Source: a virus. Taken from it: 64,000 nt of DNA. Under the pieces are notes generated by a model that ran no database searches, was not told where the DNA came from, and worked only from the letters and a program-made list of their open reading frames with translations. Shown piece after piece: positions 27,368 to 62,982 of this stretch (its first letter is position 1; each line of letters begins with the position of its first letter). The position numbers were made by a program, and so were the translations under genes. The stretch is from positions 42,735-106,734 of IMG/VR virus record IMGVR_UViG_3300027151_000002; one strand, 5' to 3'.

Positions 27368-27506
27368 TCCATTGTTGGATTGGGATTATGACAAACGAAG
27401 CGTGATGCAACTTGCTACGGCAAAGCTTGAACGTAGGCTTCAATACTGGCGAGAGAAAGAGCAGGAGGAAATCCTGAAGCGATATCGTCTCGTCACTTCC
27501 ATCTAG
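27333..27506 (+). CDS. Small helical protein, last gene of the left module
   Basis: A 57-residue protein from the ATG at 27333, overlapping the previous gene by 35 nt. It contains 'DPLLDWDYDKRSV' then LERRLQYWREKEQEEILKRY. Codon choice is still that of the AT-richer left module; the next gene, 37 nt on, is GC-rich. Confidence 0.45.
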   Translation: MPTNNSLAKASDPLLDWDYDKRSVMQLATAKLERRLQYWREKEQEEILKRYRLVTSI

Positions 27507-27543
27507 CCAAATTGCCAATTTCTACACACTACGAGGTTCAACA
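27507..27543. other. Boundary between the two gene sets
   Basis: AT-rich sequence (CCAAATTGCCAATTTCTACA) gives way within about 40 nt to GC-rich genes with different codon use. No insertion sequence, tRNA remnant or obvious attachment repeat is visible here. Confidence 0.6.
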
Positions 27544-27753
27544 ATGACTCAAGAACATCCCATCACCCCAATGAGCGACTTCCACCCCGCACCATTCGAT
27601 GACTTTTCCACCGAACTGCGCGATCCGTGGCCCGTTGTGGAGCGGCTACGCATGGCACTGCGCGAGGCCGAGCGCTACTGCCTCGGCGCTGAAAACACCA
27701 CCGGGCAGTGCATCACATCCCTTCTTGAAATTCTTCCTGACGAAGATGACTGA
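27544..27753 (+). CDS. Small hypothetical protein
   Basis: A 69-residue acidic protein: PMSDFHPAPFDDFSTELRDP, then 'WPVVERLRMALREAERYCLG' and 'ITSLLEILPDEDD'. First gene of the GC-rich module, with a GAGG-type ribosome site (CGAGGTTCAACA) before ATG. It overlaps the next gene by 8 nt. Confidence 0.55.
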   Translation: MTQEHPITPMSDFHPAPFDDFSTELRDPWPVVERLRMALREAERYCLGAENTTGQCITSLLEILPDEDD

Positions 27754-28006
27754 CTTCCGAGCGCTGTGCGCCCGCATGGCTGACGAGCTGGACCATTACC
27801 GGCAGCTTTTGATGGATGACCGACGCGAAGCACATGCGTTGGCGACAGAAGCCCGCGCCGCACTTGCTCAGCCCAAGCCGCCGAGCTTGAGGGAGCAGGC
27901 GCTAGATGCCCTCACCCTTCTATGCAAAGGGCCGGACGCAACAGCTTTTGTGACGTGTAGAGACACCATCCGCCGTGCTCTCGAACAGCTTCCCGACAAC
28001 GAGTAG
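27746..28006 (+). CDS. Small protein of a type common in picocyanobacterial phages
   Basis: An 86-residue protein starting MTDFRALCARMADELDHYRQ and including 'LATEARAALAQPKPPSLREQALDAL'. The 'FRALCAxMADEL..xRARAALAQP' style is one I recall from Synechococcus phages. No known function. The start overlaps the end of the previous gene. Confidence 0.6.
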   Translation: MTDFRALCARMADELDHYRQLLMDDRREAHALATEARAALAQPKPPSLREQALDALTLLCKGPDATAFVTCRDTIRRALEQLPDNE

Positions 28007-28031
28007 TCACCTTCACTAATTACGCCAACCC

Positions 28032-28205
28032 ATGCCCACCAAGCTCAAAGCCAGCACCCTCCCCGTCAACCTCACCGCCTACCAGCGCGCCATCGACGCC
28101 GCCGCTCGCACCGTTTCCGGTATCCCGCGCTGCCAGCTAGAGGCCATCGTCGCCGCTGCCATCACCGCCATTGGCAAACCAACAGATGACAACCAAGCGG
28201 CCTGA
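28032..28205 (+). CDS. Small hypothetical protein
   Basis: A 57-residue protein (KLKASTLPVNLTAYQRAIDA, then 'RTVSGIPRCQLEAIVAAAITAIG'). It overlaps the next gene by 20 nt. Composition is that of a real GC-rich gene. Function unknown. Confidence 0.45.
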   Translation: MPTKLKASTLPVNLTAYQRAIDAAARTVSGIPRCQLEAIVAAAITAIGKPTDDNQAA

Positions 28206-28362
28206 AAACCAACCCTGTCGCCTTGTCTCCCTCTGCGGTCAGTTCCTCACCGTCAATGGCACCTTCTCCGCAGACCCTGCCAGCGCCCTCACAGCCGAAC
28301 GCTGGTGGCTTGAACGAGAACAACGACGCATCAACACCCTCTCCATCATCATCCGCGCCTAG
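28186..28362 (+). CDS. Small hypothetical protein
   Basis: A 58-residue protein from the ATG at 28186 (KRPENQPCRLVSLCGQFLTV, then 'SALTAERWWLEREQRRIN'). It overlaps the low-complexity N-terminus of the RusA frame for most of its length, so one of the two must be read with care. This frame looks more protein-like over the overlap. Confidence 0.4.
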   Translation: MTTKRPENQPCRLVSLCGQFLTVNGTFSADPASALTAERWWLEREQRRINTLSIIIRA

Positions 28363-28786
28363 TGCCATCACCTTCAACGTGATCGGCATGGAACCAGCAA
28401 CCCAAGGCTCTAAAAGCCATGTCGGTAACGGGATCATGCGCGAAACCAATCAGCGCCTCCGTCCCTGGCGCTCTCTCGTCACCGACGCAGCCCTAGCAAC
28501 CAATACCCCACTCATCAATCACCCCGTCTCCATCTCAATAACCTTTCGCTTCCTACGCCCCAAAGGCCACTACAACAAATCCGGCCTATCCCCTAAAGCA
28601 CCAGCCCACCTAACCTCTCGCCTAAAGGGCGACATCGACAAACTTTCCCGTGCCGTGCTTGATGCCCTCACTGGCTCACTTCTTCACGACGATTCTCAAG
28701 TGGTTCAACTGGCTGCCCACAAGCGCTACTGCACCGCAGAAGAAAAACCTGGTGCCCTCATCACCATCATCCCGCTGGCAACCTAA
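28256..28786 (+). CDS. rusA: RusA-type Holliday junction resolvase
   Basis: The core begins 'AITFNVIGMEPATQGSKSH' and continues to 'SRLKGDIDKLSRAVLDALTG' and 'LLHDDSQVVQLAAHKRY'. This is the RusA signature: two Asp in GDIDK and a third in HDDSQV bind the metal used to cut four-way junctions. The start is unclear; ATG 28256 gives a Ser/Pro-rich leader, and the later GTG 28379 or ATG 28388 would lose the first strand. Its stop codon lies inside the first GGCAACCTAA element. Confidence 0.8.
   Translation: MAPSPQTLPAPSQPNAGGLNENNDASTPSPSSSAPSAITFNVIGMEPATQGSKSHVGNGIMRETNQRLRPWRSLVTDAALATNTPLINHPVSISITFRFLRPKGHYNKSGLSPKAPAHLTSRLKGDIDKLSRAVLDALTGSLLHDDSQVVQLAAHKRYCTAEEKPGALITIIPLAT
28777..28786 (+). 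promoter_or_regulatory. GGCAACYTAR element 1
   Basis: GGCAACCTAA; its TAA is the rusA stop. 19 nt before ATG 28806. A stem GGCAC-CCT-GTGCC (28793-28805) abuts that ATG. Confidence 0.6.
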
Positions 28787-53956: not shown

Positions 53957-54033
53957 TTGACTACCGCTAGCCAATAGGCTAGTTTCGTGTTGCTAGGGCG
54001 GCTCGGCTCTGGCATCGTCTTTCCATCTCCGCC
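53957..54033. promoter_or_regulatory. CTAG-rich gap, possible operator region
   Basis: Contains ACTACCGCTAGCC, AGGCTAG and TTGCTAGGG within 45 nt. ACTACCGC is also the core of the 11-bp repeats at 61881. Confidence 0.4.
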
Positions 54034-54385: not shown

Positions 54386-54607
54386 ATGGCATGGGGTGAT
54401 TGGATGGTGCCCCAACCGGGGCCAGAGCACCTCCTCACCCTTGAGCGTCAGAAACGTGCGGTCGAAAGTTACGACCTGCCGCAGGCGCAAGAGATGTTGA
54501 TCAAACTCTGTCAGCTCTCCTTGCATCAAGACCTGATCATTCGCGGCGCTACGCGGCGGATCGCAGAGCTTGAATGCAATCTTGCCCTTGCAGACCGCCA
54601 AGCTTAA
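54386..54607 (+). CDS. Small conserved helical protein
   Basis: A 73-residue protein: 'AWGDWMVPQPGPEHLLTLER', 'YDLPQAQEMLIKLCQLSLHQ', 'DLIIRGATRRIAELECNLAL'. I recall this compact helical type in picocyanobacteria and their phages, without known function. Its 3' end overlaps the convergent sigma gene by 59 nt. Confidence 0.55.
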   Translation: MAWGDWMVPQPGPEHLLTLERQKRAVESYDLPQAQEMLIKLCQLSLHQDLIIRGATRRIAELECNLALADRQA

Positions 54608-55463
54608 GCCGCAGGCTGTTCATGGCACGGTTGTGCATCTGCTGCGTGGCCTGACGGCTGATCTTCAGGTCTTCGCCGATCTCGATGTAGGAAGTTGGGT
54701 GACGGCTGCTATAGAAGTAGCGCCGCTGGATGATGTGCTGATTCTCTGGGGTCAGATCAGCAATGGCCTCGTGCAGCGCTTTGACATATTCGGTCAGATC
54801 ATCGGGCTGCGGCTCAACGCTGCGCGGATCAGCGACGACTTCCGAGAAGTTGCCGTAGTTGTCACCGCCTGGCATCTGCTGATCCAGGCTGCAGACACCA
54901 GCGTTGTGGTTCAGGTAGCCCAGCAGCGTTTGCTTTTGAATGCCGCAGTAGTCGGCCACCTCTTGCAGTGCTGGCATCTTGCCATGCTCATGCAGGTGCT
55001 TCTGCATAAAGTCCATGGCTTTGCGGATCTCATCGTTGGCCTGCATTGGCAGACGGATGATGCGGCTGTTGCGATTGATCGCTCGCGTAATCCCTTGGCG
55101 AATCCACCAGTAGGAATAAGTGCTGAACTTGTAGCCAAGGCCAGGGTCAAACTTCAGGATGCCTGAATCCATCCCAACAAGACCCTCTTGGATCAGGTCT
55201 TCAAGCGTCAGCGTGCCGCCATACCTCTTGTATTTGCCGGCGACATTGACCGCCAAGCGGATGTTGGAGAGAAAGAAGCGATCACGAGCGCGGCGCCCTT
55301 TGTTGATGATGCCCTGCTGCTGTTTCGTCGGCTTCTCAACGTTTTTGATCGCCATCCAGGCCTGCACTTGACGGGCCAAGACGATCTCTTCGGCGGGTGT
55401 CAGCAGCGGATAGCGGCGCGAGTGCTGAATGATCCAATCAACGGAAGTGCCAGGCGTAGCCAT
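54549..55463 (-). CDS. RNA polymerase sigma-70 factor (cyanobacterial group 1/2 type)
   Basis: A 304-residue protein with all core regions: 1.2 (YPLLTPAEEIVLARQVQAWM), 2 ('LSNIRLAVNVAGKYKRYGG', 'LEDLIQEGLVGMDSGILKFD', 'YKFSTYSYWWIRQGITRAI'), 3 ('RIIRLPMQANDEIRKAMDFM') and 4 ('LTPENQHIIQRRYFY', 'SYIEIGEDLKISRQATQQMH'). This is the architecture of cyanobacterial SigA/group-2 factors and rare in phages. Changes from canonical wording (VGMDSGILKFD) suggest divergence. It would redirect host RNA polymerase to phage promoters. Confidence 0.9.
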   Translation of the reverse strand: MATPGTSVDWIIQHSRRYPLLTPAEEIVLARQVQAWMAIKNVEKPTKQQQGIINKGRRARDRFFLSNIRLAVNVAGKYKRYGGTLTLEDLIQEGLVGMDSGILKFDPGLGYKFSTYSYWWIRQGITRAINRNSRIIRLPMQANDEIRKAMDFMQKHLHEHGKMPALQEVADYCGIQKQTLLGYLNHNAGVCSLDQQMPGGDNYGNFSEVVADPRSVEPQPDDLTEYVKALHEAIADLTPENQHIIQRRYFYSSRHPTSYIEIGEDLKISRQATQQMHNRAMNSLRLKLGGLQGQDCIQALRSAA

Positions 55464-58928: not shown

Positions 58929-58996
58929 GGATGCGGTGGTATCGGGTGCCGCGACGCTGCAGCACCCTTGCATCCTAGGCTAGCCTTCGCTAGTGG

Positions 58997-59679: not shown

Positions 59680-61107
59680 CTAGCCTAACCCTAAGGAGGA
59701 GATAGCCCCGCAGCCGTCCAAGCGCAGCACCACGGCCTCAACCGCTCGCTCGCGTACCAGCACCTTCTCCACAAAGCGCACAAACATCTCGCGTGTGGCC
59801 TCCTCGTCGTTTGCCATCAGGCTCCACGCCGTCTCGTTGCCCAGCTGCTTGCGCATCTCAACCGCCGTTGCCTCAACATCCAGCCGGTGCCCGTGCATCT
59901 GCATCAACGCGCTGAGCTTCATGCGCTTGTGCAAGATCGCCTCCTGCAGGTCTGGATCCTGCCGACCTTCCAGCTCCCTGATCTCCTCATCAAGCTTGAT
60001 CGCGTCATCCAGCTGGCCGTTCTTCATGCCATTGCTTGCCGTCAAGTAGGCGATCAACTGCTCGCGGCTGGCCTTCAGCTTTGACCAGATCGCATCCTTC
60101 ACCGTCTGCACTTTGATCCGGTTGCGCTTTTCGCTGGCGCACGGCCAATAGGTGCAGCGCAGATAGATCGGCCCCAGCCGCACATGGTGCTGGTAACTCA
60201 TAAACCGTCCGCAGTGGCTGCACACCACCAACTTGGTCAGCTCACGCACGTAGCCCTTCAGCAAGCCGCTGCGCTTGCGATCAACGTGTTCAAGGATCCG
60301 CGCCTGAACCTTGGCGTGCTCCACCGCACTGATCAGCGGCTTGTGCGCGTCTGGCACGACCTCCTTGTAAACCCCTGCCTTGAGCCGGCGCTTCTTCAGC
60401 CGCCCGTCTTGGTCTCTGTAGGTCTCGTCATGGCCATAGACCCGGTAGCCCGCCAGCGTCGGGTTCATCAGCCAGCTGCGCATTCCCGGCACGCTCGTCC
60501 AGGGGCAGCCCGGCAGCTCCTTGGCCTGCCGCAAGAGCGGCCGCAGCTGACCGCTCTCCAAGAACTGCTGCACCAACCAACGCGCAGCCTCAGCCGTTTC
60601 CGGGTCAAGCTCGTAGTTGGTGCGCTCTGCGTTGAAGCGGTAGCCATAGGGCGCCTTCGGCCCGAGCGGAATCAGCAGCTTGCGCTGGTACGCCCGCCCG
60701 TGCCGCACCCGTTCACTGAGCCGCTCGCTTTCGGCCTGGCCGAGGTTGATCAGCATGCGCGCCACTAGCCGCCCGCCGATGGTGGCCAGGTCCAAGGCGT
60801 CATCCAGCGCCAACAGGCTTGGCGTGTCCTCAGCGCTGAAGTAGCTCAGCAGCTCAGCGCCGTGGGCCATGGAGCGGCTGAGTCGATCCAAGCGCGTGCA
60901 GATCACCCGATCCAGTTGCCCGGCTCGGCACGCAGCCATGAGAGCGTTGAGCTGTTGCCGGTCGTCTTTGGTGCCAGAGGCTACGTCGATGAACTCGACC
61001 GTTTCGTGACCTGCTGCCGCAGCCCGCAGCCGATCTAGCTGCTGCTCAAGCGCCGCCTCCTGCTCGTCAGAGCCGGTGGACACCCTGGCGTAAAGCCCGA
61101 TGCGCAT
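59680..61107 (-). CDS. Large serine integrase (XisF-like)
   Basis: A 475-residue protein. Catalytic domain 'MRIGLYARVSTGSDEQEAAL' with nucleophile Ser10 (YARVSTG), 'ICTRLDRLSRSMAHGAELLS' and 'GQAESERLSERVRHGRAY'. The recombinase domain has 'PYGYRFN' and 'RSWLMNPTLAGYRVYG'. A zinc ribbon follows (VVCSHCGRFMSY, then RCTYWPCASEKRN) and a coiled coil. It would integrate the phage by attP/attB recombination. It resembles the fdxN-element recombinases of cyanobacteria. A perfect AAGGAGGTG ribosome site precedes the ATG. Confidence 0.92.
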   Translation of the reverse strand: MRIGLYARVSTGSDEQEAALEQQLDRLRAAAAGHETVEFIDVASGTKDDRQQLNALMAACRAGQLDRVICTRLDRLSRSMAHGAELLSYFSAEDTPSLLALDDALDLATIGGRLVARMLINLGQAESERLSERVRHGRAYQRKLLIPLGPKAPYGYRFNAERTNYELDPETAEAARWLVQQFLESGQLRPLLRQAKELPGCPWTSVPGMRSWLMNPTLAGYRVYGHDETYRDQDGRLKKRRLKAGVYKEVVPDAHKPLISAVEHAKVQARILEHVDRKRSGLLKGYVRELTKLVVCSHCGRFMSYQHHVRLGPIYLRCTYWPCASEKRNRIKVQTVKDAIWSKLKASREQLIAYLTASNGMKNGQLDDAIKLDEEIRELEGRQDPDLQEAILHKRMKLSALMQMHGHRLDVEATAVEMRKQLGNETAWSLMANDEEATREMFVRFVEKVLVRERAVEAVVLRLDGCGAISSLGLG

Positions 61108-61193
61108 TCAGCACACCTCCTTCGGCTACGGTAGTGGCTAGCCAACCACGTTTGGACGGGGTTGGTACCTGCCACCACCCGTAAAGCCGCACC
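61108..61193. promoter_or_regulatory. Divergent control region between integrase and early operon
   Basis: It holds the integrase ribosome site and CTACGGTAGTGGCTAGCC. The reverse complement of its first half, GCCACTACCGTAG, resembles the AGCACTACCGCAG repeats at 61881. A shared regulator is possible. Confidence 0.45.
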
Positions 61194-61542: not shown

Positions 61543-61749
61543 ATGCCCGCAGATCTTTCGCTGGCCTCCCGCCGGCCGCAACGCCTGACGATCACGGTCA
61601 GCCATCACGTTGCTGAGCACCTCGTGAAGCAGAGCAACAGCCAAGGCCGCTCGATCAGCAACCTTGCTGCCTACCTGCTGGAGGTGGCCCTTGGTGACCT
61701 ACCGCCAGCCCCACCGATCAAGAAGCGATGGCCCGGACAGGGCAAGTGA
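61543..61749 (+). CDS. Ribbon-helix-helix (CopG/Arc-like) regulator
   Basis: A 68-residue protein from ATG 61543: 'RRPQRLTITVSHHVAEHLVK' (strand then helix) and 'QGRSISNLAAYLLEVALGDL' (second helix), with a Pro/Lys tail. This is a clear beta-alpha-alpha DNA-binding fold. It lies in the early region between CTAG-rich gaps, with a TTGACA about 47 nt upstream. Candidate Cro-like or copy-control regulator. Confidence 0.65.
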   Translation: MPADLSLASRRPQRLTITVSHHVAEHLVKQSNSQGRSISNLAAYLLEVALGDLPPAPPIKKRWPGQGK

Positions 61750-61754
61750 CGCAC

Positions 61755-61775
61755 GGCCCCGCTAGGGGCCTTTTT
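61755..61775 (+). terminator. Rho-independent terminator
   Basis: GGCCCC, loop GCTA, GGGGCC, then TTTTT. Confidence 0.85.
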
Positions 61776-61880
61776 CATGCGCAGCTGCAGCAGTCCTGCA
61801 GCGGGTCTCAAGGGACTTAGCGACTAGCGACAGAAGGCCTTGTCTCTGCGGCTAGCGCTGGCTAATCTCTCGCCTAGCTG
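61776..61880. promoter_or_regulatory. CTAG-rich leader upstream of the phased repeats
   Basis: Holds CTGCAGCAGTCCTGCAG, then ACTAGCGAC, GGCTAGCGCTGGCTAAT and CGCCTAGCTGAGC. Probably regulatory: it lies between a terminator and the repeat array. Confidence 0.4.
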
Positions 61881-61936
61881 AGCACTACCGCAGCGCTACC
61901 GCTGGCGTAGCTCAGCACTACCGCAGCACTACCGCT
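61881..61936 (+). repeat. Four 11-bp direct repeats in helical phase
   Basis: AGCRCTACCGC occurs at 61881, 61892, 61914 and 61925, i.e. offsets 0, 11, 33 and 44, all on one face of the helix. The missing third slot (61903-61913) holds TGGCGTAGCTC. The array ends 1 nt before the GTG of a ribbon-helix-helix gene. Confidence 0.8.
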
Positions 61937-61937
61937 C

Positions 61938-62600
61938 GTGCCCCAGCTCAATTTCACGATTCCGGCGGACCTGCTCGACAGGATTGATGCCGCCAAGCCC
62001 AACTATCTAGACAGGAAGGGCTTTCTCTGCCTGTTGCTAACTAGCGCTATTGACAAGGGGCTTAACCTACCCGCGTGCTGTGCCGGTGCGGGAACCCAGC
62101 AGTCCAAGGGTTTTCCGGCTGTCACGGCTTTCGATGCAGAGCTAGGCCGCTCTGCCTCAGACGCCTCAGCGATTCCAACGGCTGTTGAGGCTGTTCAGCC
62201 GGAAATTGACCAAGCCCCTGAACCCAAAAAAAAACAAGCGCGTGCGCGTGACGCGTACAGCGTGAAAGCGATCAGCCCCGAGCTGATCCCTGACGACTTG
62301 CTCGACTGCCAGCAGCTGCTGCCCGAGTTCTGGGCGGTCAAGAAGGGCACCCGCTCCGAAGGCGTCTGGAACCGGGTGTGCAACAAGCTCCGCCAGTGGA
62401 CGCCAGAGCAGCGGCGTGAGGCCCTAGAGCGGGCCATCGCTAGCGGCTGGGGCGATGTCTTTGAGCCACCTGCAGCCAAACCCGCGCAGCAGGGCTTCGC
62501 GCTCTCGGCCACCGGCACGCCCTTGACGGTCAACGAGCAGATCGCTGCCGCTGCCATCCGCAACATCCGAGCCATGGAGGAGCGCCGTGCTGCAGCTTGA
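61938..62600 (+). CDS. Ribbon-helix-helix protein with replication/partition-like C-terminus
   Basis: A 220-residue protein with GTG start directly after the repeat array. N-terminus 'PQLNFTIPADLLDRIDAAKP' then 'LDRKGFLCLLLTSAIDKGL' is a ribbon-helix-helix-like unit. A disordered linker with KKKQARAR follows. The C-terminal domain ('DLLDCQQLLPEFWAVKKGTR', 'WNRVCNKLRQWTPEQRREAL', 'ERAIASGWGDVFEP') resembles helper domains of phage replication proteins. It may bind the adjacent repeats to control its own operon or start replication. Confidence 0.55.
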   Translation: MPQLNFTIPADLLDRIDAAKPNYLDRKGFLCLLLTSAIDKGLNLPACCAGAGTQQSKGFPAVTAFDAELGRSASDASAIPTAVEAVQPEIDQAPEPKKKQARARDAYSVKAISPELIPDDLLDCQQLLPEFWAVKKGTRSEGVWNRVCNKLRQWTPEQRREALERAIASGWGDVFEPPAAKPAQQGFALSATGTPLTVNEQIAAAAIRNIRAMEERRAAA

Positions 62601-62982
62601 GCACTTCATCTCCACGCTGAACGCTCTGCAGGAGGCCCTGCCACGCGGCAAGCGACTCGGCGAGGCCACCTACGCCTTGATGTGGGCCACCTTCCCGGCC
62701 AAGGCCAAGGAAGAGCTGACGCCCGAGATCTGGATGTATGCGGCCGCGCAGCGCCTGCTGGATCCCGATCCGATGGAAGACCTCCCGCTGCCGATGCAGC
62801 TGCTCAACTACGTCTTCCGCAACGAGAACGGCCGCGCCAACGTCTCGTGGGGCCTCAAGGCTGATCTGCCGGAGCGCATGGCTAACCCTGATCGCTTCAA
62901 CCCGCAGCCCGTGCCAGGGCAGCTGGTGCTGCCGCCAGAGCCTGCGGTGACCAATCCGCTGCTGCAGGAGGTGGCCTGGTGA
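62587..62982 (+). CDS. Hypothetical protein of the early operon
   Basis: A 131-residue protein with GTG start overlapping the previous gene by 14 nt: 'FISTLNALQEALPRGKRLGE', 'TYALMWATFPAKAKEELTPE', 'PLPMQLLNYVFRNENGRAN'. The helical 'W..fp..ak..lt.e.w..A....l' pattern recalls phage replication accessory proteins. No firm family. Confidence 0.5.
   Translation: MLQLEHFISTLNALQEALPRGKRLGEATYALMWATFPAKAKEELTPEIWMYAAAQRLLDPDPMEDLPLPMQLLNYVFRNENGRANVSWGLKADLPERMANPDRFNPQPVPGQLVLPPEPAVTNPLLQEVAW

Follow-up and report, generated by a model that had tools for sequence, protein, structure and literature searches.

A phased 11-bp repeat array before the gene of a ribbon-helix-helix, O-like initiator is a predicted phage replication origin

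An array of six 11-bp units fills the predicted leader of the downstream gene

We asked what function a row of short repeats could have directly in front of a GTG start codon in a 64 kb stretch of viral DNA (the window, by which we mean the whole of the stretch analysed). An earlier note on this DNA had described four copies of AGCRCTACCGC next to a gene for a protein with a ribbon-helix-helix (RHH)-like N-terminus, and had proposed an operator, a replication origin or a centromere-like site. Exactly four copies of AGCRCTACCGC were confirmed on the + strand at 61881, 61892, 61914 and 61925 (offsets 0, 11, 33 and 44), and the array proved to be longer than claimed: six 11-bp units (66 bp) span positions 61870–61935 on the + strand, with equivalents of different sequence at the matching position in relatives. 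Units 2, 3, 5 and 6 match AGCRCTACCGC and units 1 and 4 are degenerate (TCGCCTAGCTG and TGGCGTAGCTC, respectively). The array can thus be read as two 33-bp blocks (61870–61902 and 61903–61935), each made of one degenerate unit followed by two good units; in the second degenerate unit the core is inverted (GTAGC vs GCTAC). The description of the array as helically phased was borne out by the 11-bp period. Self-identity at lag 11 was 0.636, the highest value among the 66-nt stretches in the phage part of the window at lags 6–24, compared to a maximum of 0.564 in a shuffled control (35.5-kb sequence, lags 8–14). Outside the array, AGCRCTACCGC occurs a single time in the window (41138, − strand). 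The gap between the array and the GTG is two bases (TC, between the array end at 61935 and the gene start at 61938) and not one as first described. Two further sites, at 53960 and 61131, had been considered related. Both exist (actaccgctag at 53960 and ctacggtagtggctag at 61126–61141), but their kinship with the array found no support: the 16-mer at 61126 had no other match in the window, even when 3 mismatches were allowed, and therefore these sites cannot be assigned to the array family.

The array lies in a separate transcription unit as predicted from its surroundings. An intrinsic terminator (61755–61775, + strand; stem GGCCCC-GCTA-GGGGCC at 61755–61770, then TTTTT) stands between the initiator unit and the gene of a small separate RHH_5 protein just upstream of it (61546–61749, + strand; PF07878, E=2e-8), so that the second RHH gene, which had been placed upstream of the array, does exist. 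A probable promoter of the initiator gene was read by eye at 61840–61868 (+ strand; TTGTCT at 61840–61845, a 17-bp spacer and TAATCT at 61863–61868). This promoter was not among the sites reported by a consensus promoter scan; its hexamers and spacing are seen again in relatives, e.g. TTGCCA-17-TAGCTT. As the terminator and the by-eye promoter both sit upstream, the array takes up the 5′ leader predicted for the initiator gene. No Shine–Dalgarno sequence is evident before the initiator GTG. Pairs of CTAG 10 bp apart (GGCTAGC-N3-GGCTA-like) are present in the window at 58978–58992 and 61850–61864 and also in the related genomes G001–G006. Each genome has a few of them, several lie within promoter spacers, and by appearance they are operators for a different regulator of the phage.

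The downstream gene encodes a two-domain initiator

The gene behind the array (61938–62600, + strand, GTG start) encodes a protein of 220 aa with two domains: an RHH-like domain (aa 1–39) and an O-like C-terminal domain (about aa 112–178), connected by a disordered linker (about aa 41–103). AlphaFold2 predicted an extended N-terminus, helices at aa 10–19 and 26–39, a low-confidence linker (41–103) and a helical C-terminal part; residues 1–40 modelled alone reached a pLDDT of 87. The RHH-like N-terminus claimed for this gene product is thereby supported. An RHH domain is a strand-helix-helix fold some 40–45 aa long whose strand has alternating polar residues. Comparisons for this fold pointed weakly to NikR (E=0.042) and to a VapB-type antitoxin (TM 0.69 with E=5.6). 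The Pfam RHH families did not match the window initiator, Foldseek found no significant PDB match for either the whole initiator model or the RHH part alone, and an NCBIfam search yielded nothing useful. We therefore call the N-terminus RHH-like, as the fold is predicted from the residue pattern and the structural model and, weakly, from homology. The C-terminal part of the window initiator showed a weak match to PHROG 678, 'replication initiation O-like' (aa 112–184, E=0.004).

Several other features of the window concern the phage as a whole. A large serine integrase (59680–61107, − strand; PHROG 95, E=1.6e-60) suggests a temperate phage. A phage sigma-70-type factor is encoded at 54549–55463 (− strand; PHROG 351, E=5.6e-49), and a similar gene is present in the equivalent region of L042, a relative with a different initiator architecture (see below). 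The G+C content changes at about 27500–28500 of the window, from 0.44–0.51 on the left to 0.58–0.63 on the right; at about 36 kb, the right-hand part is close to the size of related phage genomes (37–43 kb, five of them with overlapping ends), and dCTP-deaminase-like genes are found on either side of the step (17345 and 55595). The 106.7-kb record may consist of two joined phages.

The DNA-binding domain of the initiator has been exchanged in place

Among 2.9 million viral contigs, 51 relatives of the window initiator were found. They display two architectures that have the C-terminal domain in common, while the N-terminus is either RHH-like or a winged helix (HTH_36); the winged-helix architecture includes Cyanophage KBS-S-2A. 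HTH families did not match the RHH members. The winged-helix relatives match PHROG 678 over most of the protein length (4e-15 and 1e-17). A gene for a 131-aa protein (62587–62982, + strand) overlaps the initiator gene and is kept beside both architectures: in L042, the winged-helix initiator gene is followed by one whose product is 38% identical to the 131-aa protein. Family searches gave no useful match for the 131-aa protein, which is a possible initiation partner. As the C-terminal domain and the following gene are homologous in both architectures, the DNA-binding domain of this O-like initiator has been exchanged in place, winged helix versus RHH.

A second type of C-terminal domain, homologous to the first (hhalign 97.8%), was also found with the RHH domain; the RHH protein with this second type had no PHROG match and is linked to the O-like proteins by profile comparison only. 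The search of bacterial and archaeal genomes yielded no confirmed relative. Lambda uses the DnaB helicase of its host. The phage records yielded no DnaB-type helicase, and host DnaB is therefore presumed to serve the array phage, as in lambda.

Repeats lie inside the gene in winged-helix members and before it in RHH members

Eight of the 10 winged-helix coding linkers tested contained 38–75 identical 8-mer pairs, compared to about 1.5 after codon shuffling; the linkers of L108 and L050 contained 11 and 4 pairs. The repeats are palindromic in several winged-helix linkers, e.g. AGGTCGAAAACGACCT, and AGGTCGAAAACGACCTA falls within a winged-helix reading frame in at least 42 of the 49 viral contigs that carry it. 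Unlike the winged-helix members, the RHH members tested have no in-gene iterons (1–12 identical 8-mer pairs). Significant 10- or 11-bp periodicity was instead detected in the last 70 nt before the start codon in 32 of the 36 RHH loci first tested. Conservation of such an array, which the earlier note had left to be checked, is thus seen in relatives. In the more divergent RHH members L017, L032, L041, L097, L098–L110 and L123–L125, a periodic array was not detected within 70 nt upstream. Separately, in L163, L165, L169 and similar loci, a winged helix with AGGTCGAAAACGACCT iterons is joined to another C-terminal part (FEQFWKTYLSAPVRAASQSKPKALGQWQKTL), which is a parallel case of an iteron staying with the DNA-binding domain.

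Each array type is paired with its own RHH domain

About six array types were found among the relatives, and each goes with particular residues at RHH strand positions 3, 5 and 7, which would face the DNA as in RHH proteins such as Arc. Type A, found in this window (AGCRCTACCGC, period 11), goes with Q-N-T, type B (TTCAAATCGG-like, period 10) with R-N-T, types C and D (CCGGCAAA-like) with R-E-R, type E (GCACNNTGCA-like) with R-T-T and type F (GGCGCCAAAC) with R-N-T. L016 has a type B initiator, L031 one of type C and L040 one of type F. Array similarity followed RHH identity across 33 distinct loci (partial r=0.753, with the C-terminal domain and the promoter as covariates; reached in 0 of 9999 permutations), a covariation for which physical linkage can account in part, as the array and the RHH codons adjoin. 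The correlation was 0.56 in a 26-locus version. With the C-terminal domain, array similarity showed no such relation (r=−0.11, 33 distinct loci).

Individual comparisons point in the same direction. The second C-terminal type is paired with type A, type B and E-like RHH domains, and the array fits the RHH every time; the type A loci with this second domain are ascertained, because they were found through the array, while it was the protein that led to L117, L118, L121 and L122. L016 and L117 have the array and RHH in common and unrelated DNA beyond about codon 32. Conversely, L037 and L026 share the promoter and the C-terminal domain, whereas their arrays are unrelated and most of the RHH differences fall in the strand and first helix. 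Between types B and C, the promoter is kept, the array is replaced and the RHH differences lie mainly in the strand and first helix. Moreover, a DNA pattern scan of the 2.9 million viral contigs, blind to protein, gave 26 matches to types A, B, C and F, and all 26 were placed 2–37 nt before a cognate RHH start. Array and RHH are thus swapped between relatives as one unit.

The array as a predicted origin

Taken together, we consider it likely that a cyanosiphovirus-like phage has in this array its replication origin (iterons), which the RHH domain of the adjacent downstream initiator reads; it probably doubles as an autoregulatory operator. From the possibilities first listed, the origin with probable autoregulation is favoured by the presence of the RHH on an O-like domain and by the exchange of array and RHH as a unit, and the centromere is not. 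In the mechanism that we propose, dimers of the RHH domain would sit on adjacent 11-bp units along a single helix face, building a continuous complex as ParR does on parC. Recruitment of the host DnaB helicase would follow through the O-like C-terminal domain, possibly aided by the 131-aa partner, and nearby AT-rich DNA would be melted, in many relatives within the linker of the initiator gene itself. Binding of the RHH to the array would also repress transcription of the initiator; such autorepression is expected because the array directly follows the −10 element and occupies the 5′ leader. As relatives swap array and RHH together as a cassette, origin specificity would change and the activating domain would be retained.

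A candidate for the melted DNA is found in most short-linker members, where a 40-nt stretch of the linker is 72–80% AT and ranks with the AT-richest in the 8 kb around it (quantile 0.9995–0.9999 of the whole genome in G002–G004). In the subgroup of this phage, however, the 40-nt AT maximum of the linker is only 0.55 compared to 0.72–0.80 in most short-linker relatives, and an A-rich tract (A9; 62222–62236, + strand) is its weak counterpart. As the window subgroup has the A9 tract only, the AT-rich linker is suggestive of an unwinding element but is not a general feature of the relatives. GC skew, which had been put forward as a check for an origin, does not mark the array. In four of six relatives, the cumulative skew peaks 2–3 kb before the initiator, a position that may reflect the coding strand.

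Could the array be an autoregulatory operator only, with the RHH repressing its own promoter and replication beginning elsewhere? Its position directly after a −10-like element, within the leader, would suit this function, the skew lends the array no support as an origin, and RHH proteins such as CopG repress themselves with several dimers bound (PMC5703833). On the other hand, the C-terminal domain marks the protein as an initiator, and the winged-helix relatives carry their repeats in the gene, at the place of the lambda origin. In RHH members, the gene holds no further set of repeats, and the type A unit occurs just once outside the array in the window. We therefore regard a function as operator only as unlikely, though it deserves serious attention.

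It is much less probable still that array and RHH are linked without function, as slippage-prone leader repeats that hitch-hike with the adjacent RHH codons in recombination. The array does adjoin the RHH, so that recombination moves both, and divergent RHH members lack clear arrays; but several unrelated array sequences occupy an identical position with the same helical period, and between types B and C the array was replaced next to a retained promoter together with changes mainly in the RHH strand and first helix.

A centromere-like partition site, finally, has very little to recommend it and we reject it: although ParR proteins are RHH proteins acting on 10- or 11-bp direct repeats (PMC9426499) and phage B83 has an RHH ParG-like protein, iterons and ParM (PMC6669507), the RHH here is fused to an O-like domain as part of the initiator and a ParA-type ATPase (AAA_31) was absent from eight related records in which the positive controls worked (a ParM search gave no signal, its positive controls being equally silent, so that an actin-type motor may be present).

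Beyond this locus, the origin reading can be extended to a modular code of origin specificity, a proposal that we consider slightly less likely than not. In it, an RHH would have replaced the winged helix as the origin moved from the gene to the leader, and array and RHH strand/first helix would have been swapped repeatedly, giving mutually independent replicons in which a ParR-like RHH filament would drive initiation. Initiators that recognise origins have usually been studied singly, whereas this family offers several natural array–RHH pairs on two interchangeable C-terminal domains, and therefore origin recognition should be separable from helicase recruitment. The specificity of RHH for DNA becomes approachable through a few strand residues (Q-N-T, R-N-T, R-E-R and R-T-T at positions 3, 5 and 7). 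Such a code could also explain how related phages in a shared host avoid competing for one origin, comparable to plasmid incompatibility groups.

Comparison with known systems

In the literature searched, with most subscription journals outside it, we found no description of a phage O-like initiator that binds its origin through an RHH domain. The RepA_N initiators resemble the window protein in their modular build: Rep of pSK41 binds the origin with its N-terminal domain and carries a separate DnaD-related domain at the C-terminus (PMC5703833). In pSK41, however, a RepA_N domain acts with Rep boxes inside the rep gene, while here an RHH is combined with an upstream array. CopG-type regulators of plasmid replication likewise have an RHH that binds where a replication gene has its promoter (PMC5703833), as is predicted in our case, but CopG is a separate repressor and the window RHH is the initiator's own DNA-binding domain.

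Lambda O with its origin, and the O-like phage initiators of PHROG 678, are among the closest known systems. They and the window phage have an N-terminal DNA-binding domain, a linker and a C-terminal activating domain together with repeated binding sites (predicted here), an AT-rich element lies in the gene linker in many relatives, and the C-terminal homology is reached through the winged-helix relatives. Lambda O has a winged helix where the window initiator has an RHH-like domain. The lambda iterons lie inside the coding linker of the initiator gene (PMC7466680), the putative iterons of the window phage upstream in the leader; the lambda origin repeats are inverted (PMC5043065), while the repeats of the array family are 10–11 bp long and mostly direct.

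ParR/parC, which the earlier note had taken as a model, resembles the window locus in combining an RHH protein with direct repeats of 10 or 11 bp next to a promoter, and in plasmids R1 and pB171 it likewise includes protein–repeat families that differ in specificity (PMC9426499). The model holds for the predicted geometry of binding (RHH, 10–11-bp repeats) and not for the function: ParR/parC serves partition with a motor ATPase, whereas here the RHH sits in an initiator and no ParA was found in the eight related records. By analogy, the array would work like parC with ParR in the binding of DNA, and like the origin with lambda O in the initiation of replication.
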